DNA from: Duganella sp. BJB480 | Lineage (GTDB): Bacteria > Pseudomonadota > Gammaproteobacteria > Burkholderiales > Burkholderiaceae_D | Reading direction: 5' to 3' | Assembly (NCBI GenBank): GCA_003416985.1 | Contig: QVIN01000002.1 | Location: forward strand, 1-64,000 | DNA length: 64,000 bases | Shown here: piece after piece, positions 23,401 to 39,623 of the stretch | Position numbering within the stretch: position 1 is the first letter of the stretch | How the letters are laid out: each line of letters begins with the position of its first letter | The notes under the pieces: model-generated | What the model saw: the letters and a program-made list of their open reading frames with translations, nothing else | What the model was told of the DNA's origin: nothing | The model's database searches: none | Program-made: the position numbers and the translations under genes

Positions 23401-26400
23401 AAGCTTGCGCGAGGTGTTGGGCCGCGCCAGTATCGTATCGGGCAAGCTGCTGCTGACGCTGACCGCCGTCGGTTTGCAGACCGAACTCGGTTTGCTGCGC
23501 ATTAGCACGCTGAAGCAGCCCATCTTGATGGCGTGGGACGATGACGGCGTTGAAAGCCTGGCTTTCGTAGCGGAGAGCGAGGCCGATGCCGCAACCGGCT
23601 TCCACTGCCGTATTCCCTTCCGTTGCCGGCGCCAGAGCGCCGGCAACGACCCCGCGCCCTGGTATATTCCGCCACCTGCGCAAGGCGGAACGACGGCGGT
23701 CTGCTGGGCCGCCGATGGCGGCACGCTCAGTTTGCCCAGCGATCCGCGCGAGTCCATGCAACTCAATGACCTGGTACTGCATCTTGCCGCGGCCCCGTGC
23801 TCGATACCGCGGCTCTCGCTGCATCAATCGTCCACCGTGTCCTGGGGTTTCACCCACGTCGAGCCGGGCATCGCACCGGCCCAGGCGGTTTCGACCGCTA
23901 TCGCCGGCAGCATCACCGTGATACAGGGCTCGCTAACGCCGCTTCTGGAATGGCGCGTGCGCGCCAGCGTGGCGATCGACGCCGCCGAGCTGTTTGGCCG
24001 CGTCAAAGCGGGCACCAGCCTGCGCGCGGACGTGCGGCTGGTTTGCGCGGGACCGCTGACGGTGGCGAACCGGCGCTATCTCGGCAGCAGCATGACAGGC
24101 AGGGTGGCGATCGCCAACGACTGCCAGCTCAAATATAAAGGCACGATCGCCGTCGACCACCATTGCCAGTTGATCGTCGACCAGCTTCCCTTGACGACGG
24201 CCGGCACGCCAGGCGACAGTTTCGACGCGGTGGTCGCGCATACCTTGCAATTCGGCGTCGCCGGCCTGGCCAGCTTCCAGACGGTGCAACACTTCAGCAT
24301 CCTGACGGTGGGCGGGGCAACCCATGTCCAGTCCAGCTGCGTCCTGATGCTGGTGCCTTTGACAGGGCAGCCGCCGATGGCGCTGGCGCAAATACAGTTG
24401 GCGGGAGCGCCGCCCATTGGCATCGCGCTGGCCGCGCACCTGCCGCCGGCGGTGCAAGGCTATGTGTTACGCATAGCGCTGCGGAATACCGGCACCACCT
24501 TGAGCTTGCCTGTGCCGGCCGCCGTCCCGGGCAGCGCCATCCAGCTCTTTCCACTGGCCGGCTACGTCCCCATGCCTCGTCAGGACAGCCAGGATACCGA
24601 AGTGTGGCATGCACGCGGTCCGCTGGCCGACATGATCTCCACGTCGACGCTGGCGGAGTTGACGGCCATGCAGCGCGCCGCCAAATTCAAGGGCGGCGAC
24701 TTTCCCCAGGCGAATGAGACATTGAGCGACTGGGCAGGGATACTCGAAACCGCCGGACGCTTCCAGAGCGCCATGCTGCCATCGAAAGACGGGACCGGCG
24801 TGATACCGATGCCGTTTTGGGTCGACAGCCCTGGCGACAAGGGATTGGCGCTGTCCGTCGACCAGCAAGAACGACCGCGCCTGGCGGTCACGGTCGAATT
24901 GCTGTTGATGGAAGCGCGGGGTGTCCAATCGGCCGCTGCCGCGCCGTTGGCCAGCGCCGCTGTCGCCACAATTAGCGTCGGCATTGACGGCGCGGCGGAT
25001 TCGGTGGACGCCGCCAACGCCAGCATACAAGCCTGGGCACGCCAGGAACTTCGACGTCTTTCGGCACGCAGCGTCGCCGCCACCGTCGTCCGTGGCCGGC
25101 CCGAGTGGCTGGCATCGGTCCCCAGAAGTTTCTTTACCGCCAGCGTCTGCGATGTCGACCAGCCTCGCAAGCTATTGGCACCGTCCGCGGCGCCCGCCAT
25201 ATCGCAGATTGCCGACGATACGGCAACCATCGGCGCGACCGGCTGGCAAGAGCGGGCCTCGGTCAGCCAGGCCCCCGAGTTTGTTCTTGAAGCACTGTGC
25301 AGCCGGCCCGTGCAGCAGGGACAGGAGTCGGGCAGGACCACAAGGCTGGCCTCGCAGGCATTCGTCGGCAACGACGGCCGCACTTCTGAAGTACCGGCCG
25401 GCGGCGTCGCCGTTCGCCAGTCTGTCGCCTTCGAGCAGCAACTGCCATACCTGCCACCGGCGCGCGACCATTTGGCGCTGTACCGCATGCATCAACGTCG
25501 GCAGGACGAGGCAAGCGTCCATGCGCCGGTGGTCGATGTGATTGAATGGGCTGCGCGGCCGGGTGACACGCTGGAATCCAGGTTCTCCGTCGAGAGTCCC
25601 CATGCGGTCAGCGGCCCCGCCTCTTGCCTGTCCATGCGCACGGCGCGCCCCGCCAACGGCGCCTATGGCGATCCGTTGTCGCTCGACGACAGCATCACGC
25701 TGCGCTGGGATGGGGTCGACTGGGCCATGCACCGTGTCAGCTCCAGCCGGGTTGTGGGCAAGGCCGGGACAGGCGCCGCGTCGACCCTGCTGCTGACGGT
25801 GGTGACTCCCAACGAGGCGCGGCATGAGAACTACCTGCCGACCGGCGGCGGCGACAAGTCCCTTCCGCTGCAATTGCAGTACGTCAGAAAGGAACGCAAG
25901 AATGCCACCGGAGATACCCTGATCTCGTATCTCTATGACGAACCGCTGCTGCTGGGGCTGTTTACCGACCTCCCCGCCCTGCCCGTCGTCGAGCTGGTAT
26001 TGATGCGTCCGCATGGCGTGGCCGAGCGAATCACACCGGAACCGATCGCCAGCGCGCTCGCCGATCCCAAAGGATGGCGTACCGATCCCAACAAATATTC
26101 CTGTCTGCTCTTGCGCCGATGGGATGCGGCGTTGCCGGTGCCAGGCAATGCCAAGTTGGAGGACGCCAGTGCCTATGACGCGGAATCCGCGCAATTGATC
26201 AAATCGCTGTTGGAGGCAACAGAGCAAGTGATCTCTCCGAAAGGTGAACAAACCATGCCGTGGCTAATGAACACCTCTCTGGAAAGCAGCCCCCGGTTCG
26301 CGATCCTGACAGCGGACGATCCACAAGGCCTGCGGAAGATCGCCGGCAGCGTTGCGTTGTCGTGGCAGGAAACCTGCCCATCGGACCTGCTTGAAAAGCT

Positions 26401-26602
26401 GCTGGTCCTGTCCGACAAAAAGGTGGTCGGGTATGGCGACCTCGCGGGGACCAGACGGCTCATCCTGGAGGCGACGCGCAATTTCGTGTTAAAGAGCACT
26501 TGCTATGCTTTGGAAGCCCGCCCCCTCGACCGGCAGGCCGCCGTCGAGGCGTTCCGCTTCAATAAAAGCGGCGTTTGTACCGCACAGGCAAGCCGCCCCT
26601 GA
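20402..26602 (+). CDS. Second giant protein of unknown function (2066 residues)
   Basis: The ATG at 20402 overlaps the stop of the 3746-residue gene as ATGA, which is why the longer frame from 20354 is rejected. The protein is β-rich throughout, with many short Trp-containing strands (AWSYLWTPLGLAIES, DFCWRIEAPTYIDDD). It has a Pro/Ala-rich central part and a more helical last 350 residues (LIKSLLEATEQVISPKGEQ). There is no signal peptide, membrane helix, P-loop or recognisable catalytic motif. The strict coupling implies that it works in a fixed ratio with the first giant, as a complex or as sequential parts of one structure. It is convergent with the methyltransferase at 26706; the 103 bases between carry an imperfect GC-rich inverted repeat. 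Confidence 0.85.
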   Translation: MTTITLVSDAVAGQCEYQYSPTGGIVKHCLVMSQIEHRLRVDTTAAGLTVTELSGGAGRRRLQLTARGAGATLNVVFPDLNGQLPPAMPPDPAADWDCRLTGNVVLLEEGSDANVAYRIEVGMLKCEPGRKASVRVLNMLWPVIPPRNTAWSYLWTPLGLAIESTLTIDNIAHPATLLLPAARGAAKDVAWNPSDDGASLQFWKADASGDFPEVNAIGAAGARLTPLLPRDKPWPGPAPTMARRWRLLEIDQHGLLDMALAILNVDPYLTLERHAPAVGKPGTVVLDEPAMAAELWTAVELQVNKQVLAGAVLTSLRDTMAARIRWNAASRSATMQAANVHVSLAPDGESHRLLRHYLTLSNGPRSKADLVQISWNPLQQESPQATQIGRAGMLFAGMSPSPDSPQAGGLPGGPRWIKLADGYIDLVSIADPAQIAAAKARLQQASYDGGSLDGGVPLGEIGGPAGMTALMADASADGKGRSSAWLRIRKNKVQLELSGAYLLWETPAWWIADRDAAAASGALPNLAPGFSASFKQPDASVETMRQRLSQALSAHLNTTHWIGKMGQPGQGEWIVEKTPAGTTLTLPSGLAKQCRISTPIGDAALLSLLPYPGVDPSALLLDGSRGTTPLVAPKQPVVLVLRENALPALAAPAFPSVESAPAQWTPIGGEMFDPRAWGLGYHPARQEFDYRHAAQMATETQLRIRPDGSLGQQISGASPAAVRAADDIAIWTSGTPGSPSPRFSLSGGATKGPLSLRGWIPGSTVGVKQLKYQSPTLTLTIVCGKDQKDEVTLDMSLDGRNQQPVPLSLRSDDGEVHWLERAVAGNFVGYGQPLQVAGDFSWFADGRSRWQPYAAGVRPTKVNGVAQNLLTFNAFCSLGLYGGDPSWQLGISVCDQAPGSPALQWDMLGDGEAPRVGPFALLSHELTGLTPTAFATTLRLGLPFASRHAASASATGLLTLQWNGAPDVLWQIADGDCGDFCWRIEAPTYIDDDEGLSARISLREVLGRASIVSGKLLLTLTAVGLQTELGLLRISTLKQPILMAWDDDGVESLAFVAESEADAATGFHCRIPFRCRRQSAGNDPAPWYIPPPAQGGTTAVCWAADGGTLSLPSDPRESMQLNDLVLHLAAAPCSIPRLSLHQSSTVSWGFTHVEPGIAPAQAVSTAIAGSITVIQGSLTPLLEWRVRASVAIDAAELFGRVKAGTSLRADVRLVCAGPLTVANRRYLGSSMTGRVAIANDCQLKYKGTIAVDHHCQLIVDQLPLTTAGTPGDSFDAVVAHTLQFGVAGLASFQTVQHFSILTVGGATHVQSSCVLMLVPLTGQPPMALAQIQLAGAPPIGIALAAHLPPAVQGYVLRIALRNTGTTLSLPVPAAVPGSAIQLFPLAGYVPMPRQDSQDTEVWHARGPLADMISTSTLAELTAMQRAAKFKGGDFPQANETLSDWAGILETAGRFQSAMLPSKDGTGVIPMPFWVDSPGDKGLALSVDQQERPRLAVTVELLLMEARGVQSAAAAPLASAAVATISVGIDGAADSVDAANASIQAWARQELRRLSARSVAATVVRGRPEWLASVPRSFFTASVCDVDQPRKLLAPSAAPAISQIADDTATIGATGWQERASVSQAPEFVLEALCSRPVQQGQESGRTTRLASQAFVGNDGRTSEVPAGGVAVRQSVAFEQQLPYLPPARDHLALYRMHQRRQDEASVHAPVVDVIEWAARPGDTLESRFSVESPHAVSGPASCLSMRTARPANGAYGDPLSLDDSITLRWDGVDWAMHRVSSSRVVGKAGTGAASTLLLTVVTPNEARHENYLPTGGGDKSLPLQLQYVRKERKNATGDTLISYLYDEPLLLGLFTDLPALPVVELVLMRPHGVAERITPEPIASALADPKGWRTDPNKYSCLLLRRWDAALPVPGNAKLEDASAYDAESAQLIKSLLEATEQVISPKGEQTMPWLMNTSLESSPRFAILTADDPQGLRKIAGSVALSWQETCPSDLLEKLLVLSDKKVVGYGDLAGTRRLILEATRNFVLKSTCYALEARPLDRQAAVEAFRFNKSGVCTAQASRP

Positions 26603-26705
26603 CAGATAGCGCCCCGATGCCGCCGCCCCAGGTTCACAGGTGATGAGCCTGACGGCGGCCGGCATTGGGCACCGCTTTGCGTCTTGACGTTTGCCTGACG
26701 CCGCC

Positions 26706-27290
26706 TCACACCCGCACCAGCCACGATTTAGCGACGGGCTCCCGCGTCACATGGACGCTTCGACCCAGCCTGGAAAAGAAAAGGTCCACCGCCGACTTCA
26801 CGCCATACACGGCATCACCAACGCCGTCGACGTAATCATGCCCGCACATCAGTCCTCCCGGCCGCATTTTCGGATACCAGTTCGCCAGGTCCGCCATCAC
26901 GGACTGGTACGCGTGGTTGCCGTCGAGGTAAACGCAATCGATCGATGCATTCGGGAAGCCCTGGCTGGCTTGCACGGAGTACGCCCTCAAGATGCGGCTG
27001 CGCGGACCGTGGGAGGCCAACAAGGCGCCTGCGCACCGGAACCTGACTTCCTGCTCCTGCGGCGGGACATTGCAAAGATCGCTATACCGGTGCAAAGGCT
27101 GGCTGTCCCACGGATCCACCGAGTACAGCATTCGCCCCTGCCAATACCTCAGGATGTGGTCGCTGAACCGGCCCCATTCCACCCCTACCTCGACGGCGAC
27201 GCCACAGAGGCCGAGCTGGTTAAGCAGCAACGGCAGCTGTTCGCGGCAATTGATGCTTGCGACAGAGGCGTCATTCCACCCGGTGTCCAT
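26706..27290 (-). CDS. Class I SAM-dependent methyltransferase
   Basis: A 194-residue protein with the Rossmann-type motif I VAVEVGVEWGRFSDHIL, then a YSVDPW strand end, CVYLDGNHAYQSVMADL and RPGGLMCGHDYVDG. That is the arrangement of Methyltransf_24-type enzymes acting on sugars, small molecules or peptides. The ATG shares its A with the stop of the upstream P-loop gene (TGATG), so the longer frame is rejected. It is the last of eight overlapping genes that start with the MNIO-like enzyme, so it probably modifies the same product. Alternative acceptors (O- or N-methylation) cannot be told apart. Confidence 0.8.
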   Translation of the reverse strand: MDTGWNDASVASINCREQLPLLLNQLGLCGVAVEVGVEWGRFSDHILRYWQGRMLYSVDPWDSQPLHRYSDLCNVPPQEQEVRFRCAGALLASHGPRSRILRAYSVQASQGFPNASIDCVYLDGNHAYQSVMADLANWYPKMRPGGLMCGHDYVDGVGDAVYGVKSAVDLFFSRLGRSVHVTREPVAKSWLVRV

Positions 27291-27910
27291 CAGCCGCCGC
27301 CCGCCGGCAGATGGAAGGAATAACCGCAATAGGCCAGGATGGCGGCAACACAATCGTCCCAGTTGCCGCCGCTGTTGTCGAGGTGCAGATACGGCAGTTC
27401 GCTCAACAGCAGCGCCCGGCGGCGCTTGGCCTGCGACTGTCTGACGGCCGCGATCGCCAGCCGTCGTCCGCCGTAATACCCGTCCATTTCGTCCGCCCAG
27501 CCGGCCCGCTCCGGGCACAGCACCGAGCGCTGTTCGATCAGCGCCGGGCGATAGTCGAGTAGAACCTGCGCCGCCTGCAGCGCATGCAGCGCCCGATCAT
27601 ACCGCCGCACCAGGTGCCAGTGGCTGAACAAGGCGTACACGGTCAGATGAAACCGCTCCAGCACCACCAGCGTGCGCTCGTCTTCCCGCAGCGCCCGTTG
27701 CGCCGCGGCGAACCCGGCGTCGAGCCCCGGAAAAACCGGCCGCTCGCGCCACGACGGTATGCGCACGTCCTCCAGAAAGCTGCCCATGATGAAGTCCTCG
27801 TCGATGACGTGTACCGGCTGGCCGGCCCGCCGGCCCCATTCGACCAGCTTGGCGATGGTCCGGCTCTTGCCGGTGCCGGTGACGCCCTCGATGATCAGCA
27901 AGCGGCGCAT
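27290..27910 (-). CDS. P-loop NTPase / kinase-like protein
   Basis: A 206-residue protein with an N-terminal Walker A motif, IIEGVTGTGKSRT, and a size and layout like nucleotide or small-molecule kinases (thymidylate-kinase or zeta-toxin type). A Walker B-like strand is TLVVLERFH. A mid-region HVIDEDFIMGSFLEDV could hold acidic residues for the phosphate acceptor. It is joined to both neighbours by TGATG overlaps. Within a peptide-modification operon it might phosphorylate a residue to activate it, or act as an accessory ATPase. The substrate is unknown. A second ATG six bases upstream (27916) is also possible. Confidence 0.65.
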   Translation of the reverse strand: MRRLLIIEGVTGTGKSRTIAKLVEWGRRAGQPVHVIDEDFIMGSFLEDVRIPSWRERPVFPGLDAGFAAAQRALREDERTLVVLERFHLTVYALFSHWHLVRRYDRALHALQAAQVLLDYRPALIEQRSVLCPERAGWADEMDGYYGGRRLAIAAVRQSQAKRRRALLLSELPYLHLDNSGGNWDDCVAAILAYCGYSFHLPAGGG

Positions 27911-28716
27911 CAGCATGCGGCCGGCCGCACGCCGCGCATGACGGCGTCGGCGAGCGGCATGATGTCGCTGAGGAAGCGCACCTCGAGCGGCGTCAGCTCC
28001 GGATGCCAGACATCAACGATAAGGATCACGCGCCACTCGCCGCTCTCATTGAACGACTCGTGCAGAAAGGTGGTGTCCGCAGCAAAGCAGGCGCCGGCGC
28101 GCAGCTCGCGCGTGCTGCGGTCGAACGTGATCGTCGCCCCCGGCGTCGACACCAGCGGCAGATACAGCGTGGTGACGAAATTGAGTTCGTCGCTGTGCAA
28201 GGTGATGGCGGTGCCCGGGCCGACCACGGAAAAGAGCGCCTCGCGAGAGACCTGGCACCCGTCCAGGCTGCGCAGCGCGACGGGCGTGTGGACGGCCGCC
28301 AGCGACTGCCGCTTGAAGTATCGCTGCAAATACCAGGCGTTCCACGCGCCGTTCAGGCGGCCGCGGTCGATGCGGCTGTCGCCCCAATGGGCCTCGCCGG
28401 GCCGGGTGCCGAACACGCCGGCGGTGACAAGCAGGCGCTCGGCCTCGGCCCGCAGCAGCGGATAGCGCCGTTGCAGCAGCTCGGCCACGGGAAAGCGCCC
28501 GGCTTCCCAATAAGGTCGGGCGCTCAGGCCTGGCATGTACATGCGCCGATGCAGCTGCCGGTTGGCGGCCACCGCGTCCGGCGCGCGCGCGCCGCTCAGC
28601 ACCTGCAGAAACACTTCGATGCGCTCGCCCCCGCCGGCGCCCAGCTCCCCGGCGTAGTTGGCGGCGGCCTGCGCGGCGATCTCGGCCAGCGCCCGTTCGC
28701 GTCGTGGGTCTCTCAT
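27910..28716 (-). CDS. Aspartyl/asparaginyl beta-hydroxylase-like oxygenase
   Basis: A 268-residue protein whose C-terminal half fits the 2-oxoglutarate/Fe(II) Asp/Asn β-hydroxylase family. His174 (TLHSDEL) and His219 (TTFLHESFNES) would bind iron, and Arg229 (GEWRVILIVDVWHPEL) would hold 2-oxoglutarate; the VDVWHP ending is typical. Asp176 follows the first histidine. The N-terminal 100 residues are helical and not recognised. The ATG overlaps the stop of the upstream methylase gene (ATGA), so the longer frame to 28905 is a shadow. In this operon the obvious candidate substrate is the Asp or Asn of the repeat peptide (IDPSMYNPAAVRCAPA). That assignment is an inference. Confidence 0.8.
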   Translation of the reverse strand: MRDPRRERALAEIAAQAAANYAGELGAGGGERIEVFLQVLSGARAPDAVAANRQLHRRMYMPGLSARPYWEAGRFPVAELLQRRYPLLRAEAERLLVTAGVFGTRPGEAHWGDSRIDRGRLNGAWNAWYLQRYFKRQSLAAVHTPVALRSLDGCQVSREALFSVVGPGTAITLHSDELNFVTTLYLPLVSTPGATITFDRSTRELRAGACFAADTTFLHESFNESGEWRVILIVDVWHPELTPLEVRFLSDIMPLADAVMRGVRPAAC

Positions 28717-29519
28717 GATGCGATCAATCCTTCGATGGCGTCCGGGTCGACGAGCTGGGCCTGGAAGCGGCCGTCGAGCACCTGGACCGGCCGCGCCGGC
28801 GGCAGATACAAGGTCGAGTTGTAGTTGGCCAGGTGGCCGGCGCCGGCCAGTTGGGCCAGCGTCAGCCGGTGCCGCGTTTCCGCATGCGGGAAGCCCATGT
28901 CGCATTCGATCAGCTCCACCCCGTGCTCCGGCGGATACCAGCCCAGCAGATAGCCTGCCAGCAGCGCCAGCCGGCGCGGATGGTTGCCTTGCGAACGCGT
29001 GATGAAACCGGAGCCGAAGCAGCCAATCTGGAAGATCAGCGCCGGCACACGGTTGTCGGGAGTGAGCCGGTAGGACACCAGGCGATTGGCGTCGAGTATC
29101 TGCAAGCCGGTGCTGCCGATATCGGCCGGCATCGACAGCAGCAGCACGTCGATCGCCGACACCCCGGCAAGCACGTTGACGCGCACGCCCCAGCGCGGGC
29201 CGTGTTCGCGCAACAGATGGGTGGCGGCGACGTAGATCGACGGATGCCCCATCACCACGAATACCATCCGCTGCGAGGCCAGGCTTTGCGCCAGCAGGAA
29301 GGAAACGATCTGCCCATACACTTCCAGGTCGAGCGCGCCCTCGCGGTACATGTGGAACAAGCCGTGGGTGTTGGGATTGATGCGCCGGATTTCATTGACC
29401 GCCTCGACCCCGGTCACCAGGTGGTAAACCACATCGGCCGTCGCGATCGCCTCCACCGTTTCGAGCGTCATGTGGCGCGCGCCCCGGATCCCCACGCCGA
29501 CGATGTCGATCTCAGTCAC
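28713..29519 (-). CDS. Tetrapyrrole-methylase-fold, borosin-like methyltransferase
   Basis: A 268-residue protein of the tetrapyrrole (precorrin) methylase fold. It has an N-terminal IDIVGVGIRGARHMTLE, the loop VFVVMGHPSIYV (GHPSIYV at 91-97) and the segment NVLAGVSAIDVLLLSMPADI. The sequence is closer to borosin α-N-methyltransferases (the SonM type) than to cobalamin enzymes, including GYLLGWYPPEHGVELIE and the final STLYLPPA. Borosin enzymes methylate peptide backbone nitrogens. Tyr58 and Tyr68 sit where the borosin active-site tyrosines lie, but the arginine I expect just before the second tyrosine is absent (DLEVY), so activity may differ. It starts with GTG inside the end of the radical SAM gene, and there is no peptide fused at its C terminus. 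Confidence 0.8.
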   Translation of the reverse strand: MTEIDIVGVGIRGARHMTLETVEAIATADVVYHLVTGVEAVNEIRRINPNTHGLFHMYREGALDLEVYGQIVSFLLAQSLASQRMVFVVMGHPSIYVAATHLLREHGPRWGVRVNVLAGVSAIDVLLLSMPADIGSTGLQILDANRLVSYRLTPDNRVPALIFQIGCFGSGFITRSQGNHPRRLALLAGYLLGWYPPEHGVELIECDMGFPHAETRHRLTLAQLAGAGHLANYNSTLYLPPARPVQVLDGRFQAQLVDPDAIEGLIAS

Positions 29520-31485
29520 GGGTCACCTGTAGTGGAATGATCTTCCTGGCCCGCTCGCGCGCCGCCTGGACCGCCAGCATGGCGTCCGCGCCGCCGGCGT
29601 CCTCCGGCACCGGATACAGGCTGCGCCTGGCCGATACCGGCCCCCAGGGGATGGCCAGGGCCAGCACCTTGCCGCCTTCGGCGAAGGCGATGCGGGCGTC
29701 GCACCATTTGGCGATCCAGCCGTCGATCACCTCGGCGCTCAGGGTCGGGAAGCGAGCGTGCAGATGGCGCGCCGACACGACGGCCGCGCATTCCAGGTAG
29801 ACGTCGCGCTCGGCCCCCTCCAGCCAGTGGAAGCGCGCCGCCGCCCAGCGGAAGTCGCGCACTTTGAGATAGGTGCCGCCGTCCTGCAGCGACAGCAACA
29901 GGCGCCCCTCGACCTTGCCGACCATGCGGTGATAGTGCTCGCGCCAGTCGTCGGCGGCGTCCTGCACGCGCTTCCACAGCGGGCGCAGGCGCTCCAGCGC
30001 CGGGCTGTCGAACGATTGCTCCGTCAGGAACACCGTCTGGTACAACTGCGGCGGCAGCAGCATCCGATACATCTCGTAGCTGCGGATGTTCTCGATGCCG
30101 AAGCTGTGCGGCTGCTTGTACGCCGGCGATTGATACACCAGCGAGAAGCTGGTGGTCGAGAGCGGATAGAACGAGCGCGCGAAGCTCATGTTCTCCAGCT
30201 CGTCGAGGATGTCGGTCGCCTCCATGCCGGGAAAGTCCAGGATCAGGTTGGCCGAGTTCTGGATGCCGTGCTGCTCGCACAACTTCATCGCCTGCAGGTT
30301 CTGGATGGTGGTGGTGCCCTTGACCATCTTCTTCAGCATGCCGCTCGAGAGCGCCTCGATGCCGAACTGGATGACCCTGGCGCCCACCTTGCTCAACTTG
30401 CCGATCTGGGCCGGCGTCACCGACGCCCGCGCCTCCATCCACAGGTCGAGGCCCAGGTTGAGTTTGTCGAGCCCGTCGATGAAGAGGTCGGCTTGCTTGT
30501 GCCGCAGGATGTTGTCGACCACCGTGAAGTCGGGGCACTGGTGGCGCCGGTTCAGCTCCGCGAACAGCGCGGTCGATTGCTCGACCGGCCGCTCGCGATA
30601 GCCGTGCCATTGCAGGTTGAGGTTGCAGAAGCTGCAGCTGAGCATGGGGTTCTTCAGGCTCTGGTCCCACCAGCAACCGCGATTGGTTTCCACCGGGATG
30701 CGTACCCTGCCCTTGGCCTCGGTCCCGCCCGGCATGCCGGCCAGCCGCTCGAAATAGCTGCCATAGTCCGGCACCGGCAGCTCGCCCATGTCCGGCAGCT
30801 GATCGACGTCATGGTGGACGTCGGCCGGTGAGCCTCGATGGAACACCCCCTTGACGTCGACCATGCGGCCCGGCGCGGCGGCGGCCAGCGCGTCGATCAG
30901 GCCGACCAGCGGGCGCTCGCCCTCGCCGTTGGCGATGTAGTCGATGAAGTCGAAGCTCTCCAGCAGGCTGGCGCCGATCTTGCCGGTCACGCCCGGCCCG
31001 CCCAGCACCACCGGCACGCCAGGCGCCCGCCGCTTGATCTCGCGCGCGGTCAACAGGGTGGACATCGACTGCGAGAACACCACCGACATGCCGATCAGAC
31101 TGTAGCGCGACCAGTCGACCGCGTCGAGCCGGCGCACCAGCCCGGTCCGCAGGGTTTCGATGACGCGTCCGTAGTCGAGGTTGGCGAACAGCGGATCGTC
31201 GCCGCGCGATTTTTCCAGAAACACCTCGATGGCCGGGCGCTGTTGCGGAAACATCAGATAGGCGAACAGCGCCTCGCCGATCCAGCTGATCGAGATGCGC
31301 TTGCTCAGGTGCATGCCGAGGTCGCCGGACAGCTCAAGAAACAGATCGTAACAGTCGACCTGCACCGCGGGCCGCTCGCGCTTGACCCAGGCGCTCAGGG
31401 TGCCCAGCTGAATCGATGGACTGAAGGGATCCTGCCACGGCAGGGACAACAACGCGATGCGGGAAGTGCTGTCGGGGGCTGGCAT
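29512..31485 (-). CDS. B12-binding radical SAM, RiPP-type C-methyltransferase
   Basis: A 657-residue protein with an N-terminal cobalamin-binding-like region (about residues 1-230: IALLSLPWQDPFSPSIQLGTL, PVVLGGPGVTGK). A radical SAM core follows, opening with the family hallmark NRGCWW and then CSFCNLNLQWHGYR. This matches RiPP-maturation radical SAM C-methylases of the polytheonamide and bottromycin sort. The cysteine spacing is C-X12-C-X2-C, longer than the roughly C-X7-C-X2-C I know for this family and than the classical CX3CX2C. The insertion is DQSLKNPML. These enzymes methylate unactivated peptide carbons. It starts 18 bases after the second methylase gene and overlaps the next by 8 bases. 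Confidence 0.87.
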   Translation of the reverse strand: MPAPDSTSRIALLSLPWQDPFSPSIQLGTLSAWVKRERPAVQVDCYDLFLELSGDLGMHLSKRISISWIGEALFAYLMFPQQRPAIEVFLEKSRGDDPLFANLDYGRVIETLRTGLVRRLDAVDWSRYSLIGMSVVFSQSMSTLLTAREIKRRAPGVPVVLGGPGVTGKIGASLLESFDFIDYIANGEGERPLVGLIDALAAAAPGRMVDVKGVFHRGSPADVHHDVDQLPDMGELPVPDYGSYFERLAGMPGGTEAKGRVRIPVETNRGCWWDQSLKNPMLSCSFCNLNLQWHGYRERPVEQSTALFAELNRRHQCPDFTVVDNILRHKQADLFIDGLDKLNLGLDLWMEARASVTPAQIGKLSKVGARVIQFGIEALSSGMLKKMVKGTTTIQNLQAMKLCEQHGIQNSANLILDFPGMEATDILDELENMSFARSFYPLSTTSFSLVYQSPAYKQPHSFGIENIRSYEMYRMLLPPQLYQTVFLTEQSFDSPALERLRPLWKRVQDAADDWREHYHRMVGKVEGRLLLSLQDGGTYLKVRDFRWAAARFHWLEGAERDVYLECAAVVSARHLHARFPTLSAEVIDGWIAKWCDARIAFAEGGKVLALAIPWGPVSARRSLYPVPEDAGGADAMLAVQAARERARKIIPLQVTRD

Positions 31486-31503
31486 GGTATCTGGCCTCTT
31501 CCA

Positions 31504-32178
31504 TCAAAATACGAACACGGTGGTTTCGGCATCGACCCGCGCCAGCCAGGCTGCGGCCTGCCCCAGCGCGAACTGTTCGATCCGGGGCTGGTTGCCCACC
31601 ACGCGGAACAAGCTGAGCGGGTGTCCGTCGACGAAGCGCCGCCGCAGCCGCTCCAGCAGCAGCGGGCGCTGGCCTTCCGGCAGATAGGCGACGTTCCAGA
31701 TCGCCAACGCCCGCCCGGCACGGCCATCCTCGTCCGCCAGCCAGCCGCGCGCGTCGACCAGGCTCACTTGATGAGCCAGCAGATCGACGCCGGTGGCGGC
31801 CATGAAATGGTCCAGCGCGCTGGGGGCGCCGTGGATGGCGACGGCAATGCCCTGGCTTTCCAGATGGGGGCGCAGCCAGACAGTGGCCGGGTTGGCCGCC
31901 ACCGGATGCCCGGCCACCGCCAGCCCGGCGCGGCCATGCCGAAGCGCCGCGCCGCTCACGGCTGCGCCCAGCCGCGCCACGAAGCCGTGCCCCTGGCCGC
32001 TATCGAGGCAGGCATCGAGATCGACCGCGTCCGGCCACTGCCGGAGGAAATCGGCCCGCACCTGCAGCGGCAGGCCATAGTGGCCCAGCCAGCGGCAGCT
32101 ATCCAGCGCACGCCGGCCAGCCATGGTCACCTGTCCGCCACTGAGTCCCATGCCCACGATCTCGACCCCCGCTTCCAC
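31504..32178 (-). CDS. Second, shorter tetrapyrrole-methylase-fold protein
   Basis: A 224-residue divergent relative of the methylase at 28713. It has VEIVGMGLSGGQVTMAGRRA at the N terminus, AVAGHPVAANPATVW in the SAM-binding loop and VAIHGAPSALDHFMAATGVD after it. It is about 45 residues shorter than its partner and ends without the C-terminal strand set, so it may be inactive or a partner subunit; fold members are normally dimers. It starts with GTG, three bases after the stop of the repeat-protein gene, with GGAAG upstream. Two methylases of the same fold beside one precursor candidate suggest either a heterodimer or two methylation steps. Confidence 0.7.
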   Translation of the reverse strand: MEAGVEIVGMGLSGGQVTMAGRRALDSCRWLGHYGLPLQVRADFLRQWPDAVDLDACLDSGQGHGFVARLGAAVSGAALRHGRAGLAVAGHPVAANPATVWLRPHLESQGIAVAIHGAPSALDHFMAATGVDLLAHQVSLVDARGWLADEDGRAGRALAIWNVAYLPEGQRPLLLERLRRRFVDGHPLSLFRVVGNQPRIEQFALGQAAAWLARVDAETTVFVF

Positions 32179-32181
32179 CGC

Positions 32182-33033
32182 TCACTTCCAGCGCACGCCG
32201 GTGAGCTTGGCGCCGGTGAAGTTGGCGCCGTCCAGCAGCGCCCCCCGCAGGTCCGCGTCCTCCAGATTGGCTTCGCTCAGGTCGGCGCCGCTCAAGTCCG
32301 CGCCGCGCAGGTCCTGTTTGGAGAAATCGGCGCCCTTGAGAATGGTGCCGCGCAGGCGCACGTTGGCCGGTTGCGCATGCATCGCCGCCGTCACCGCCGC
32401 GTACATCGCCGGATCGATGGCAGGCGCGCAGCGCACCGCCGCCGGGTTGTACATCGACGGATCGATGGCCGGTGCGCAGCGCACCGCCGCCGGGTTGTAC
32501 ATCGATGGATCGATGGCAGGCGCGCAGCGCACGGCCGCCGGGTTGTACATCGATGGATCGATGGCAGGCGCGCAGCGCACGGCCGCCGGGTTGTACATCG
32601 ATGGATCGATGGCAGGCGCGCAGCGCACGGCCGCCGGGTTGTACATCGATGGATCGATGTGCTGGCCGGGCTGCGGCTGCTGCGGATAATACACCGGCCG
32701 ATTCAGATCGCCGTGCGGATCGTTGGGGTTGGTCATTTTGCCGATCTCCATAACTGGGTTAAGAAAGGGATACGCGATGTCCGACAATTGTCCTGTATTG
32801 GGATCGCGCCGGTAGCGTGCTTGCGCACGGATTGCTTCGATCGATCGGTGAACCTCGATTCCCAATGCCGCATGATCCCAGTTCACCTGGCCCAGGCGCT
32901 GCAATTCGCCGGCGCTCAGGTCATAGCCGCGCCGGCGCGCATCGTCGGGGCCGGCAAAAGCGGCGATCTCGCCGGGCTTGATGACATTGTTCGTCAGGTC
33001 GAGGTATAGCTGCTGGAGGTCTTTCAGGCCCAT
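32182..33033 (-). CDS. Repeat-containing candidate RiPP precursor with pentapeptide repeats
   Basis: A 283-residue protein in four parts. Residues 1-75 are helical and could be a leader or recognition domain, with the segment LDLTNNVIKPGEIAAFAGPD, then GYDLSAGELQRLGQVNWD; it faintly resembles the helical recognition domain of split borosin precursors. Residues 76-125 are Pro/Asn-rich. Residues 126-205 are five exact copies of IDPSMYNPAAVRCAPA, followed by a degenerate sixth (IDPAMYAAVTAAMHAQ). Residues about 227-283 are pentapeptide repeats of the A(D/N)LxG type. Each copy has one Cys, one Asp, one Asn and one Tyr. The ATG overlaps the end of the MNIO-like gene by 10 bases. Encoded inside an operon of peptide-modifying enzymes, it is the evident substrate. 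No protease or transporter gene lies nearby. Confidence 0.8.
   Translation of the reverse strand: MGLKDLQQLYLDLTNNVIKPGEIAAFAGPDDARRRGYDLSAGELQRLGQVNWDHAALGIEVHRSIEAIRAQARYRRDPNTGQLSDIAYPFLNPVMEIGKMTNPNDPHGDLNRPVYYPQQPQPGQHIDPSMYNPAAVRCAPAIDPSMYNPAAVRCAPAIDPSMYNPAAVRCAPAIDPSMYNPAAVRCAPAIDPSMYNPAAVRCAPAIDPAMYAAVTAAMHAQPANVRLRGTILKGADFSKQDLRGADLSGADLSEANLEDADLRGALLDGANFTGAKLTGVRWK
32419..32658 (-). repeat. Five tandem 48-bp repeats encoding IDPSMYNPAAVRCAPA
   Basis: Five head-to-tail 48-bp units in the repeat protein gene. Three consecutive units (those spanning 32508-32651 on the plus strand) are identical base for base. The other two differ at a few positions, all synonymous. This means recent duplication with strong selection on the peptide. 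Copy number is likely to vary between strains and could be misassembled. Confidence 0.97.
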
Positions 33034-33911
33034 GCCCGGCCCCGCTCGGCAAAGGTGGTGCGCATCTCGACCTGCGGCCAGAACAGCCTGTTCAAGATCT
33101 CGAGGTTGTGGAACACCACCCACGGCTCGGCGCCGATGGTTTCGGTGTACATCGCTTCCAGCGCCGTGCATCGCGGCAGCACCGCGCGCAGGCAATCGAC
33201 CGTGATCGGATTGATCGGTCCGGCGTAGTCGTCAATCCAGGTCAGGCCCTGCGCGTCGCCAACCATGCCGCCGGCGGTGTTGATCTCGCCGACCGCCTCC
33301 AGCGGAAATTCGTCGATCCGGTCGAGCATGGGGGCCTGGCGCAGCAGGTTGTAGCTGACGTAGTGACCGATATCGAAATTCAGCTTGGCGCCGGTGCGTT
33401 CGACGAAGCGGCGGAAGAAGGTCGCCAGATGCATCTCGTCCGGTCCCGGCGCGTAGAAATGCGGCACTTCAGGGAAGAACGGAATCGGACTGGTGCGGGT
33501 GATCTCGTTCATCCGGCGCACACAAACGTCCAGGCATTCCTCGGTCAGCAGCAATTGCACGTAGTTCGGATGGCCGGCCTCCCTGGTGCGGCCGAAATTG
33601 GTCACGATCATATCCTCGGTGGCCCAGGCGGGCGACCACATGGATGCCACCTCGGCGACGCGCGGCAACTGATCGGCAAAGCGGCCGTCCGCATAGGGCA
33701 GCTCGAACTCGCCGCCGGCGTGCCACACGTAGCGCAGCCCCGGCGGCAGCGCGGCCCGGACGAAGCGCAGGAATTCAGGGGTATAGTTTTCGTAGAGGTA
33801 GATCGTCAGGTAGCTGCACAGGCCCCGGCGGTAGGCCTCGTGGATGACGGTCAGCGCGCCCGGTTCGCATAGATCGTTGGCGAGTCCAATTCCAAGAACA
33901 TTGCTTGACAT
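33024..33911 (-). CDS. DUF692/MNIO-like multinuclear iron oxidase
   Basis: A 295-residue TIM-barrel-type protein resembling the DUF692 (MNIO) family, whose known members (MbnB, TglH and bufferin enzymes) oxidise cysteine in peptides with an iron cluster. Likely metal ligands are His64 and Glu68 (YVWHAGGEFELPY), Glu148 and His151 (FFPEVPHFYAPG), Asp180 and His183 (LNFDIGHYVSYN), Asp227/228 (TWIDDYAGPI) and Glu257 (LEAMYTETIG). The HlAGH and DxH motifs common in the family are replaced by NTAGG and DDYA, so it is a divergent branch. The ATG has GGGAG eight bases upstream. It is the first gene of the eight-gene operon and directly precedes the Cys-containing repeat protein. A xylose-isomerase-like barrel is the alternative. 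Confidence 0.68.
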   Translation of the reverse strand: MSSNVLGIGLANDLCEPGALTVIHEAYRRGLCSYLTIYLYENYTPEFLRFVRAALPPGLRYVWHAGGEFELPYADGRFADQLPRVAEVASMWSPAWATEDMIVTNFGRTREAGHPNYVQLLLTEECLDVCVRRMNEITRTSPIPFFPEVPHFYAPGPDEMHLATFFRRFVERTGAKLNFDIGHYVSYNLLRQAPMLDRIDEFPLEAVGEINTAGGMVGDAQGLTWIDDYAGPINPITVDCLRAVLPRCTALEAMYTETIGAEPWVVFHNLEILNRLFWPQVEMRTTFAERGRAWA

Positions 33912-34380
33912 CGAATTCTCCCTATCAACCAGCTACGGAGTTTCAGAATTTCATTTCAATTCTCGAGGCGGCGCGAAATCAGACGGTAGTATATCTTCAA
34001 GTTTGGCAAAAGCGACAACGGAAAATCATGACTGTTGTTTTCCATTTTGATTCAATGCCGACACCACAAACGACCGGCTTCCTCTTGACGTTTGCCCGCA
34101 CAAGCAAACCCCAACAACCGCGCCAGAACGCCCATCGCGGTGGCGCAGGATGCAAGCGTTCCGGTGGTATTTCCGCAACCGTGGCGATATTTAATAGTTG
34201 AAGATTTTATAAGTCGTTGCGATACTCGCATCACTGTTGGCCCGCCCTGGCGGCGCCAGCATGTCACCTCTCCAAGCATTGTCATTTGACGCCGTCGCCC
34301 CGAGCCGAAGCGCGCTTCGCTTGTCCCGACGCCTATTGCAACGCATCCCTGCGGGATGTTCGACATGAGAAGGACAAGAA
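33912..34380. other. Divergent intergenic region between two modification clusters
   Basis: 469 bases separate the start of the MNIO-like operon from the start of the ferritin-like operon. The first 300 bases are clearly more AT-rich than the flanking genes. It contains a candidate minus-strand promoter (33988-34018) and an AT-rich TTTATAAG (34206-34213) that could be part of a plus-strand promoter without a good -35. No frame in it looks coding. The plus-strand gene has AGAAGGA about 6 bases before its ATG. Confidence 0.55.
33988..34018 (-). promoter_or_regulatory. Candidate promoter of the MNIO/repeat-protein operon
   Basis: On the minus strand a -10 TATACT (33993-33988) lies 19 bases after TTGTCG (34018-34013). 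The spacer is longer than ideal and the -35 is a 4/6 match. It sits 77 bases before the ATG of the first gene and is the best candidate in this region. Confidence 0.33.
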
Positions 34381-35958
34381 ATGCGAGCTGCACAGATCCG
34401 CCGCCACCTCGGCGCCCCCTCCGCCCTGCTGCCCCGCACCGGCACCGAACAAGGCCTGCCATCAACCACGCCGCAGCTGTTGCGCGGCACGGTCGCGCCG
34501 GCGACCGCCGCCAAGGCCGCCAAGACGCCGGCGCTGAACCTGGAATTTTCGCCGCGCGACTACATCACCTACCTGCTGTCGATCGACGCCGAGATCGAAC
34601 ACTGCCTGATGGTGCAATACCTGTACGCCGCCTATTCGCTGGGCGGCCCCCAGGTGCCCGAGGTGTTCCGCGACAGCGTGCGTACCTGGCAGGAGGTGAT
34701 ACTGGGCATCGCCAAGGAGGAGATGGGCCACCTGATCTCGGTGCAGAACTCGCTGCGCCTGATCGGCTCGCCGTTGCACATGGAACGCGAGGATGAGCCC
34801 TGGGATTCCCCGTTCTACCCGTTCCCGTTCTCGCTCGAGCCGCTGACGCTCGATTCGCTGGCCAAGTACGTGTACGCCGAATCGCCTGTCGACTGGGACG
34901 GCGGCGCGCTGGGCGACGAAATCCGTCTGCGCGTGCACGCCCAGACCGACAATCCGCACCAGGTGGCGGCGCTGTTCAACACCCTGATTCCGCTGGTGGC
35001 CGATCCCGACTACCTGCCCGACGCCGCTTTCGACGCCTCGACCCTGCCGGCCCAGGCCGACTTCGCCGAGTGGGGCCGAGGCTACCAGGGCGGTCATCGC
35101 GGACGGCCCAGCGGCCAGCCGACGCAGACGCCGGACGTGCTGGTGGTGCCGCAGACCTGCCGCGACGACATGGTCGCCGCGCTGCACGCGATCGCCCAGC
35201 AGGGCGAGGCCACCAGCGGCACCACCGCCTCGCACTTCGTGCGCTTCCTGCGCATCTATGTCGAGATGCGCGAACTGATCGAGCACACGCCGCTCGCGCC
35301 CGAACACTGGAGCGCGGCGCGCCCGGCCGATTTCGCCGCGCCCCAATGGCAAGCGCTGCAACCGGAGAGCAAGGCCGGCCTGCTTGGCGGCCGCGCCACC
35401 TGGGCGCCGGCGCGCCAGGTCGCCGTCAATCCCTACGTCTCGCTCGATCCCGAGGACGAGGGCAGCGACGAGAGCGCCACCGCCACCCGCATCAGCCATC
35501 CCGAATCGGCGCTGTGGGCCACGCTGCACAACATCCGCTACCGCATGCTGCTGACCTACCTGATCCACAGCTTCACGCTGTACGGCGGCTTGAACGCGGC
35601 CGGTGCGATCACGCCGCGCGGCGCCATCGTCAACGCCACCTTCGGCGAGATGTACAACCTGCGCGCCATCTCGGAGATCCTGATGCAGTCGCCCGTCTCG
35701 GCCGACGACCCGGCCGCCGGCTACGCCGGGCCGCCGTTCCAGATGCCCTACACCCTCAACAGCCCGTTCGGCGAGGCCAACAAGTGGCGCGGCCACCTCG
35801 ACCTGCTGACCGCCTCGGCCAGCGTGGTGGAGGCGCTGCAGCTGCTCACGCCCGCCTCCCGCCACGCCTACCTGGCGTCGCTGCGTGAGGCCGACCGCAA
35901 TATGCGCGAGCTGATCCTGCGCATCCTGTCGGGCAGCATCGACACCGCCTTGCTCTAG
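34381..35958 (+). CDS. Ferritin-like protein (VioB/RebD-type iminophenylpyruvate dimer synthase domain)
   Basis: A 525-residue protein. Residues about 60-330 form a ferritin-like four-helix domain with AEIEHCLMVQYLYAAYSLGG and IAKEEMGHLISVQNSLRLIG, giving the ExxH-type iron ligands of the family that includes the N-terminal part of VioB, RebD and StaD. The C-terminal 200 residues have further long helices (LHNIRYRMLLTYLIHSFTLY, EMYNLRAISEIL) and could be a second half of the bundle. VioB-type domains couple imines of aromatic amino acids, but many relatives have unknown roles. It opens a five-gene plus-strand operon with LodA-like proteins, a radical SAM enzyme and a flavoprotein. It may handle iron or oxygen in building their cofactor. 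The start follows AGAAGGA. Confidence 0.78.
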   Translation: MRAAQIRRHLGAPSALLPRTGTEQGLPSTTPQLLRGTVAPATAAKAAKTPALNLEFSPRDYITYLLSIDAEIEHCLMVQYLYAAYSLGGPQVPEVFRDSVRTWQEVILGIAKEEMGHLISVQNSLRLIGSPLHMEREDEPWDSPFYPFPFSLEPLTLDSLAKYVYAESPVDWDGGALGDEIRLRVHAQTDNPHQVAALFNTLIPLVADPDYLPDAAFDASTLPAQADFAEWGRGYQGGHRGRPSGQPTQTPDVLVVPQTCRDDMVAALHAIAQQGEATSGTTASHFVRFLRIYVEMRELIEHTPLAPEHWSAARPADFAAPQWQALQPESKAGLLGGRATWAPARQVAVNPYVSLDPEDEGSDESATATRISHPESALWATLHNIRYRMLLTYLIHSFTLYGGLNAAGAITPRGAIVNATFGEMYNLRAISEILMQSPVSADDPAAGYAGPPFQMPYTLNSPFGEANKWRGHLDLLTASASVVEALQLLTPASRHAYLASLREADRNMRELILRILSGSIDTALL

Positions 35959-35967
35959 GAGACCATC

Positions 35968-37383
35968 ATGCCGATACTGGAACTGAGAATCCTGCCGCCG
36001 CTGGCCGTGGCCCGCCTGGGCGGCGCCGCCGAGCCGCTCGAAGCCTTCGACCTGGAGACCGATCCGGACAGCCCGATGAACTACCGCCGCATCGTGCCGC
36101 GCGAGAGCTTCGAGGTCGATCCGCAGAGCGGCCGCATCGTGCGCGCCTATGTGCCGGACAACATCCGCTTCAAGGACGAGGACAAGCTGGTGCGCCCGGT
36201 CGCCCCCTTCCTCGAGGTGTACGCGCGCACCAGCGAGGACCCCGGGCAGCTGCAGCCGCTGACCACCGCCCTGCTGGCCGAGCACGGCCTGGCGCTGGCC
36301 AACCTGCACTGGGACGTCGAGCTGGGCAACATCAAGATCTACCGCCGCACCAACAACCCGAACGATCAGATCCACGCCAACCTGTTCAACCTGAAGGACC
36401 ACGCCCGCCACGCGCTGGACGGCTGGTGCGAGAACTTCAAGCTGGGCAAGAAGCTGCCGCTCGGCCACGTGCAATTCATCGCGCCGACCGATGACTTCCC
36501 GGAAATCCGGCTGCGCTACACGCCGGCCGCCGGCAAGGTCTACGGCAGCCGCATGCAGCGACTGGAACCGCAGGCCGACGGCGTGCCGCTGCTGGTGGAC
36601 GACCCGATCATCGACAACGAGGACCTGGTGCTATACGACGCGGTGCGCGGCGACTGGCTCAACTACACCGAAGGCACTGGTCCGACGCTGACCAACCCGG
36701 CCGGCATCTACGCCGGCTACGCCAACGCCCAGGGCCAGCAAGTCAGCTGGGGTTACCTGGACGACGAATGCGACGGCCACGTGCGGGTGGTGCTGAAGCT
36801 GGCCGACGGCGGCACCTTGACGGCCCAGGCCACCATCGGCGCCGGCCCGCCCGCCTACGCGCCGGACACGCTGCCGATCCGCGTCGTCTCCGACGAGATG
36901 GAGCAGCTGCTGCACGGCCCCACCGTGCAGGAGGAAGAGGTGTCGCTGGAGCAGGCCACCGAACTGGTGCTGCGGGCGCTGGAGACGGTGCGGCTGATGA
37001 ACACGGCCGTCATGAACGGCAACCCGGTGAACGGCCGCCTCAACGTGGCCAGCACTATGGTGCGCCAGAACAGCAGCGACTTCGAGCGCTACTACGAGCC
37101 GATCGCCGCCGCCTCGCTGGTCGACAACCTGGCGCTGCGCGCCCTGCACGAGCGGGTGTTCAGCGCCCTGTCGGCCGGCGGCGCGCCGTGGTTCGCCCAG
37201 ACGCTGCGCCTGCCCGAGGAGATCGGCGACCTGTCGGCGATCGCGCTGCGCAAGATGCCGGCGCTGATGCGCGGCGCCGACGGCCGCAGCCTGACGCTGA
37301 CGCGGCGCCACATCGACATGGTGGTCAAGGCCGCCCGCAACGCCATGTTCCGTCAACCCAACAACACTGCAGGAGAACTGTGA
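35968..37383 (+). CDS. LodA-like N-terminal half protein
   Basis: A 471-residue protein whose beginning, MPILELRILPPLAVARLGG, matches the start of LodA-type quinoprotein oxidases (the 'PPIGIARVGNS' signature). A region with LHWDVELGNIKIYRRTNN also resembles the strand IxWxVHxANxKA of that family. The middle contains LGHVQFIAPTDDFPEIRLRY and VYGSRMQRLEP; the last 150 residues are helical and unlike LodA. LodA enzymes oxidise amino acids with a cysteine tryptophylquinone made from their own chain. This protein lacks the C-terminal cofactor part, which seems to be encoded by the next gene, whose ATG overlaps this stop (TGATG). The gap to the ferritin-like gene is 9 bases. Confidence 0.6.
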   Translation: MPILELRILPPLAVARLGGAAEPLEAFDLETDPDSPMNYRRIVPRESFEVDPQSGRIVRAYVPDNIRFKDEDKLVRPVAPFLEVYARTSEDPGQLQPLTTALLAEHGLALANLHWDVELGNIKIYRRTNNPNDQIHANLFNLKDHARHALDGWCENFKLGKKLPLGHVQFIAPTDDFPEIRLRYTPAAGKVYGSRMQRLEPQADGVPLLVDDPIIDNEDLVLYDAVRGDWLNYTEGTGPTLTNPAGIYAGYANAQGQQVSWGYLDDECDGHVRVVLKLADGGTLTAQATIGAGPPAYAPDTLPIRVVSDEMEQLLHGPTVQEEEVSLEQATELVLRALETVRLMNTAVMNGNPVNGRLNVASTMVRQNSSDFERYYEPIAAASLVDNLALRALHERVFSALSAGGAPWFAQTLRLPEEIGDLSAIALRKMPALMRGADGRSLTLTRRHIDMVVKAARNAMFRQPNNTAGEL

Positions 37384-39618: not shown

Positions 39619-39623
39619 GGCCG

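Follow-up and report, generated by a model that had tools for sequence, protein, structure and literature searches.

In the split borosins (type IV, SonM/SonA of Shewanella), a tetrapyrrole (TP) methylase is encoded separately from the precursor of a ribosomally synthesized and post-translationally modified peptide (RiPP), and in polytheonamide-type proteusins, C-methylation by a B12-binding radical S-adenosylmethionine (SAM) enzyme, N-methylation, and hydroxylation all fall on one precursor. Here we describe an operon of eight minus-strand genes in Duganella sp. BJB480 (assembly GCA_003416985.1, contig QVIN01000002.1, positions 1-64,000, a 64 kb stretch hereafter called the window), in which enzymes of these kinds are encoded beside a multinuclear nonheme iron-dependent oxidative enzyme (MNIO). 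The operon probably makes a hypermodified multi-core RiPP from a precursor-like protein with five 16-residue Cys units, a reading that we prefer because both architecture and co-inheritance fit it. The polytheonamide-type systems differ in their proteusin leaders, single long core, and other N-methyltransferases, and we know of no MNIO in them. An MNIO together with a B12-radical SAM enzyme and a hydroxylase, the trio also found here, has already been described in biphenomycin-like (pbs) clusters; the available text of that report adds an MNIO partner protein, FHAFRF-motif precursors, and an arginase, and makes no mention of a TP-methylase (PMC12257519). In bufferin and oxazolin clusters, as far as the accessible part of the source describes them, the MNIO gene lies beside precursors with 17-residue EGKCG Cys repeats, and the core genes are MNIO, DUF2063, and DoxX (PMC12452194).

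The eight Duganella genes are all open and densely packed into a cassette of about 7.2 kb at 26706-33911. In order of transcription, the features of the locus are as follows:

33912-34049, minus strand: A+T-rich upstream (promoter) region, part of the DNA block common to Janthinobacterium fluminis (blastn block end at 34049)
33024-33911, minus strand: gene 1, MNIO-like oxidase of 295 aa (PF05114)
32182-33033, minus strand: gene 2, precursor-like repeat protein of 283 aa (translation, alignment of 11 family members, structure model)
32782-33033, minus strand: leader domain of the repeat protein, modelled as five helices (structure model)
32419-32658, minus strand: five identical units IDPSMYNPAAVRCAPA (tandem-repeat and translation analysis)
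32371-32418, minus strand: sixth, degenerate closing unit IDPAMYAAVTAAMHAQ (closing DPxxY element without RCAPA)
32182-32370, minus strand: C-terminal part, a short linker and a pentapeptide-repeat beta-helix follower (PF00805, pentapeptide proteins of the PDB)
31504-32178, minus strand: gene 3, TP-A, divergent TP-methylase-fold protein without the borosin catalytic residues (profile against OphMA, hhalign against TP-B)
29512-31485, minus strand: gene 4, B12-binding radical SAM enzyme (TIGR03975)
28713-29519, minus strand: gene 5, TP-B, TP-methylase whose nearest solved structures are borosin N-methyltransferases (PF00590, PDB matches)
27910-28716, minus strand: gene 6, Asp/Asn beta-hydroxylase-family protein with an HxD...H triad (PF05118)
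27290-27916, minus strand: gene 7, P-loop (kinase-like) protein (Walker A GxxxxGKS)
26706-27290, minus strand: gene 8, class I methyltransferase, variable among the operons (PF13578)

The initial annotation of the sequence had placed an eight-gene operon at exactly these coordinates, and every junction is indeed an overlap or a gap of less than 20 bases. The MNIO and repeat-protein genes overlap by 10 bases, gaps of 3 and 18 bases separate the repeat protein from TP-A and TP-A from the radical SAM gene, and overlaps of 8, 4, 7, and 1 bases join the radical SAM gene to TP-B, TP-B to the hydroxylase, the hydroxylase to the P-loop gene, and the P-loop gene to the methyltransferase.

The second gene encodes the candidate precursor. 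A tandem array at 32401-32659 (48-base period, 5.4 copies, 96% matches) has five full copies that all translate to the same 16-mer, IDPSMYNPAAVRCAPA, with the differences between copies falling at synonymous sites throughout. This bears out the Cys-containing 16-residue tandem repeat of the initial annotation, in which the folded leader and the C-terminal pentapeptide-repeat domain (PF00805, 67.7 bits against a cut-off of 20.2) had gone unmentioned. All 5 cysteines of the Duganella protein sit within the units, one in each 16-mer. A DNA pattern for RCAPA[IV][DN]P that left out Val coded by GTG matched the 7.27 Mb host genome 5 times, always inside the array (reversed control, 0), and a profile of the leader searched against the same genome at E up to 0.1 returned a single match, the operon's own repeat protein.

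Among the best 120 of 738 matches to the precursor, the top 11 have the same leader, and the rest, with 16-46% coverage of the query, resemble ordinary pentapeptide proteins. These 11 relatives keep the unit across phyla, with 1 to 7 RCAPA copies per protein, and RCAPA stands at a fixed place after 41 of 53 DPxxY elements. Ten of the 12 DPxxY elements without RCAPA are closing elements, one is cut by a contig end, and one is internal; a closing DPxxY of this kind is present in 10 of the 11 family members, the eleventh being the one cut by the contig end. Because most members thus have one more DPxxY than RCAPA motifs, the aligned sequences suggest that DPxxY flanks each core on both sides as a site of recognition or cutting.

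A search with the full-length precursor model, in which the repeat units are disordered (predicted local distance difference test, pLDDT, about 30), put pentapeptide-type proteins first, and the leader was therefore modelled alone. It came out as five helices with a pLDDT of 85. The borosin binding domain (BBD) of SonA is likewise a five-helix bundle in the available description (PMC8429565). In the fold comparison, Os1348 was the best match by Z, and SonA was not among the rows reported (19 chains). Profiles point in a similar direction: NF038399 matches the leader weakly in 3 of 3 members (best E 0.00083; 14.2 bits against a cut-off of 40, E 0.036, for the window leader) and PF14407 in 2 of 3 (best 0.015). 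The leader is thus reminiscent of the NHLP clan (Os1348 family) and of the Franean1_4349 RiPP family, but both profiles stay under their curated cut-offs and, to our knowledge, neither tandem units nor a pentapeptide follower are features of those families. Judged by its sequence, the locus has what characterizes RiPP systems in general, a dedicated precursor with leader and conserved core, encoded beside its enzymes and kept together with them in relatives.

If the units were modified but never cut, the repeat protein could instead be a permanent intracellular metal-buffering or redox protein, comparable to the long bufferin/oxazolin repeat precursors. Neither a protease nor a transporter gene was recognized among the eight genes in Pfam and NCBIfam profile scans, as the initial annotation had also stated, and the C-terminal pentapeptide domain would likewise suit a protein that stays whole. 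Here too the MNIO gene adjoins that of a protein with a repeated Cys motif, and MNIO-linked repeat proteins are known, with EGKCG repeats in the accessible part of the literature source (PMC12452194). The unit described here, however, is without EGKCG, and NF050167, the model for the BufB-type bufferin maturase, gives the window MNIO only 30.2 of the 310 bits needed. For metal storage, cysteines at a density of one in 16 residues are few, and for a buffer, seven tailoring proteins seem more than would be needed; the structure model, moreover, leaves the repeats disordered, and RCAPA occurs just once in two relatives, of which P0034 may be incomplete. On this balance we consider an intracellular buffering or redox role unlikely, and continue with the multi-core RiPP reading.

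A link to the borosins lies in TP-B, which passes PF00590 (57.1 bits against 27.8). Its matches in the PDB comprise 26 distinct sequences, and 25 of these are borosin-type, mostly variants of SonM, OphMA, dbOphMA, and MroMA. E values run from about 3e-20 for SonM, the best match, through about 2e-14 for OphMA to 0.0098 for CobF, the last of the 26, which makes TP-B a homologue of the borosin alpha-N-methyltransferases. Its Tyr58 and Tyr68 align with SonM Tyr58 and Tyr71; Asp64 stands opposite SonM Arg67, and Met90 opposite SonM residue 93, which is Phe in the aligned mutant chain. TP-B therefore holds only part of the SonM catalytic set of Tyr58, Arg67, Tyr71 (and Tyr93).

Two TP-methylase-fold proteins had been proposed for the operon, and for TP-B this is directly visible, whereas TP-A, which itself has no Pfam match, is recognizable as such only by profile comparison or through the homologue from a Myxococcaceae genome bin (PF00590, 46.1 bits against 27.8). 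A TP-A profile matches OphMA at E 3e-6, and hhalign pairs TP-A with TP-B at a probability of 95. Of the Tyr/Arg residues in the corresponding catalytic stretch of OphMA, for which we assumed the residue numbering, the alignment preserves none in TP-A, and by this comparison TP-A is a remote paralogue without the borosin catalytic Tyr/Arg residues. The operon thus resembles the split borosins in its separate TP-methylase, in the PDB neighbours of TP-B, and perhaps in the five modelled helices of its N-terminal precursor domain, but has two TP proteins and not one, does not keep SonM Arg67 and Tyr93, and adds tandem cores, a pentapeptide follower, an MNIO, a B12-radical SAM enzyme, and a hydroxylase.

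The first gene product passes the MNIO profile PF05114 (37.5 bits against 25), and 22 relatives of it were found. The iron site of MbnB is given as His55, His91, Glu135, Asp165, Asn168, His194, Asp209, His211, and Glu238 in the accessible part of its report (PMC8888699). We aligned the MNIO clade (23 sequences) to two canonical MNIOs of the host genome, onto which the MbnB residues were placed by motif and by eye. The clade keeps Glu135 and Asp165 (here Glu148 and Asp180) in 23 of 23 sequences, replaces Asn168 by His and His91 by Asp in all 23, has Asn in place of His194 in 20 of 23 and His in 3, and carries T or S for Asp209 and I, V, or L for His211. The alignment leaves the counterparts of His55 and Glu238 ambiguous, His64 and Glu257 being candidates by eye. 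With five of the nine mapped residues different in the window protein, it is, on sequence grounds, an MNIO by profile and not by ligand set.

In pbs clusters, and also in aminopyruvatide (apy) clusters, which combine an MNIO with a radical SAM enzyme (ApyH and ApyD) in the sources as available, the MNIO has a partner protein, whereas no partner gene is present in this operon, whose other seven genes are assigned otherwise (a partner elsewhere in the genome was not sought); across the MNIO superfamily, an adjacent partner gene is common without being universal. Similarity to the apy enzyme is low, with 41.3 of 400 bits for the ApyH model. Known MNIO enzymes, as far as the accessible source reports, mostly take Cys as their target and some take Asp, Asn, or Phe (PMC12452194). 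The two canonical MNIO genes of the host lie on contig 8 (L018) and contig 6 (L019) and score 366 and 335 bits; that of L019 is within a 639-aa open frame, a further part of which may, by eye, be DUF2063-like.

The remaining enzymes are more readily assigned. The radical SAM protein passes TIGR03975, the model for RiPP radical SAM C-methyltransferases (337.6 bits against a curated cut-off of 281.85), and has a long-spaced iron-sulfur motif, C-x12-C-x2-C, which lies at residue 269 of the Duganella protein and is present in 3 of 3 operons; two of the three other radical SAM proteins of a Myxococcaceae genome bin have C-x7-C-x2-C and one C-x14-C-x2-C. The hydroxylase passes PF05118 (90.3 bits against 22.6) and keeps HxD...H, which we take to be the triad of the Asp/Asn beta-hydroxylase family, in 3 of 3 operons. 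The P-loop protein has Walker A GxxxxGKS in 3 of 3 operons and no family above its cut-off in the Pfam and NCBIfam scans, and gene 8 matches Methyltransf_24 (PF13578) with 58.7 bits against 26.3. The further B12-type radical SAM genes of the Myxococcaceae bin (L012, L013, and L014) are 27-35% identical to that of the window and lie, with neighbours named by eye, next to a nonribosomal peptide synthetase-like open reading frame (ORF) in one case, to an NHLP-like small protein with SagB-like ORFs in another, and to a Gly/Pro-rich peptide in the third.

The combination as a whole had been thought to be undescribed. This does not hold for MNIO, B12-radical SAM enzyme, and hydroxylase, which the pbs report unites, and it stands for MNIO with borosin-type methylases, for which we found no published cluster among the matches listed from the open-licence literature. 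Within those matches, "borosin" does not co-occur with "DUF692" and "TP methylase" is absent from the MNIO literature; "borosin" and "MNIO" co-occur in one paper, a survey of RiPP recognition elements, which in its available text describes no such cluster. TIGR03975 or Franean1_4349 together with a TP-methylase likewise did not appear in the open-licence literature.

Janthinobacterium fluminis has the same eight genes in the same order. When the window was compared by blastn with 20.9 kb of J. fluminis, including flanks of about 10 kb and 3.7 kb, homology was confined to 26705-34049, the operon with about 140 bases upstream, at about 91% identity. Between the window and J. fluminis, ratios of nonsynonymous to synonymous substitution rates (dN/dS) are lowest for the precursor (0.073), followed by the MNIO (0.095), the radical SAM enzyme (0.12), the methyltransferase (0.17), TP-B (0.18), the hydroxylase (0.19), the P-loop protein (0.30), and TP-A (0.40). 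The C-terminal domain of the repeat protein resembles MfpA and related pentapeptide proteins of the PDB, as would be expected if it were an accessory, a scaffold or a self-protection protein like MfpA, Qnr, or AlbG, and the enzymes acted on some other substrate. That the protein with the lowest dN/dS of the operon, the sole one in the host genome with such a leader, and one laid out like a precursor with variable-copy units behind that leader, would be accessory seems to us highly improbable.

In the Myxococcaceae bin, one contig has the MNIO gene and then the start of the repeat protein at the contig end, and a second begins inside the repeat array and continues with the TP-A, radical SAM, TP-B, hydroxylase, and P-loop genes; we infer that the two are one operon. 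Its eighth gene encodes a PRMT-like methyltransferase (PRMT_C, 36.6 bits against 27) in place of the Methyltransf_24 enzyme, and we therefore regard the first seven genes as the core and the eighth as variable. Homologous operons without the repeat protein had been named in the initial annotation as what would count against its reading; both readable related operons have it beside the MNIO gene. A convergent ORF beside the Myxococcaceae operon (L011 6207-7109, minus strand) resembles, by eye, a protein of the phytanoyl-CoA-dioxygenase type.

The clade is rare. In counts that include the query genome and come from overlapping genome samples, the MNIO clade is present in 1 of 60 relatives, 1 of 369 genomes of the class, 1 of 74 of the genus, and 2 of 392 of the family, where the additional case lies at the J. 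fluminis coordinates, and the radical SAM enzyme at E 1e-80 in 1 of 398 Pseudomonadota. Myxococcota gave 1 of 195, the known Myxococcaceae bin, and a plasmid collection gave no MNIO match at E 1e-20. Such rarity might be expected of a chance neighbourhood of unrelated genes or of a decaying cluster, but J. fluminis has the genes in identical order, a member of another phylum has seven of them so arranged, the flanks are unrelated to those of J. fluminis, and dN/dS stays at 0.07-0.40, and the conserved order in practice refutes this explanation. Since the hosts are distant, presence is sparse, and flanks are unrelated, we suggest that the block has moved horizontally.

Several observations weigh against a multi-core RiPP made by these enzymes in the manner of their relatives. 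Two stand foremost: TP-B has no equivalent of Arg67, and the ligand set of the MNIO is changed; going by these residues, the chemistry of either enzyme may differ from that of its named relatives. One Cys lies outside the units in 6 of the 11 precursor relatives, and counts of the RCAPA columns are circular where the units were picked by RCAPA, the count from DPxxY to RCAPA (41 of 53) being the independent one. Four of the 22 MNIO relatives are on contigs identical in size to a repeat-protein contig, an indirect pairing (P0005/P0028, P0008/P0030, P0016/P0033, and P0020/P0029), but P0002, P0011, P0012, and P0015, on contigs of 6.6-146 kb, are without such a pairing among the best 120 of 738 precursor matches; the remaining 14 are on contigs under 4 kb.

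Because of the missing Arg67 equivalent and the altered MNIO ligands, the operon would be better described as working like a borosin/MNIO hybrid than as a strict borosin member. In the scheme we propose, the folded leader would dock the precursor on a TP-A/TP-B pair, as the SonA leader does on SonM, and backbone N-methylation would proceed from unit to unit, carried out by TP-B in association with a catalytically dead TP-A subunit. Each RCAPA Cys would be oxidized by the MNIO, C-methyl groups would come from the B12-radical SAM enzyme, and the hydroxylase would modify DPxxYNP at Asp, Asn, or Pro. The last methyltransferase would have a side chain or a terminus as its target, and the P-loop protein might serve to phosphorylate the product or to drive the complex. 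Release of the units would fall to a protease encoded elsewhere. The order of these reactions, the modified residues, and the release and function of the product are, throughout, what we infer. The initial annotation's proposal of a multi-core RiPP-type modification operon is thus upheld in architecture and conservation, although the kinship with borosins, the loss of catalytic residues from TP-A, and the unusual metal ligands of the MNIO had escaped it. Whether the locus is also a new RiPP class is a more tentative proposition, which we hold at somewhat less than even chances: tandem RCAPA cores, bracketed by DPxxY, between a helical leader and a pentapeptide beta-helix would be turned, one after another, by a one-live/one-dead heterodimeric borosin-type methyltransferase, a partnerless MNIO whose iron site has been rebuilt, and a B12-radical SAM methylase into N-methylated, C-methylated, Cys-oxidized, hydroxylated peptides.

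The upstream region (33912-34049) has a GC content of 42%, against 67% in the operon, and no sigma-70 promoter consensus was found in it. By eye, an imperfect inverted repeat at about 34014-34042 (GGAAAA...TTTTCC, ACAAC...GTTGT), partly kept in J. fluminis, lies upstream of the MNIO gene and is a possible operator or hairpin. Terminator-like sites number 4, against 4.5 in shuffled sequences, and no Rfam match for a structured RNA falls within 26500-34500. A defence system was also considered and rejected, PADLOC giving a single weak match for the eight operon proteins (mad8, 18.9 bits, on the P-loop protein).

Divergent from the operon and outside the block common to J. fluminis, a plus-strand cluster at 34381-41102 encodes a ferritin-like protein (PF12902), two ORFs that match LodA_N and LodA_C weakly and under cut-off, a SPASM-type radical SAM protein whose nearest model (302.8 of 453 bits) is that of the quinohemoprotein amine dehydrogenase maturase, and a Trp-halogenase-like flavoprotein; it may be a split LodA-type quinoprotein system. 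On the other side, two giant adjacent plus-strand ORFs of 3746 and 2082 aa (9165-20405 and 20354-26602) have no Pfam match at E 0.01.

If the proposed pathway is correct, backbone N-methylation, radical C-methylation, MNIO chemistry, and hydroxylation would meet on one short repeated substrate, enzyme chemistries that we otherwise found described in separate pathways only, and a single 7.2 kb cassette could be expressed to study how four chemistries are ordered. The identical tandem units would serve as built-in replicates for tests of directionality, and the MNIO clade would offer a natural test of which iron ligands the family needs.

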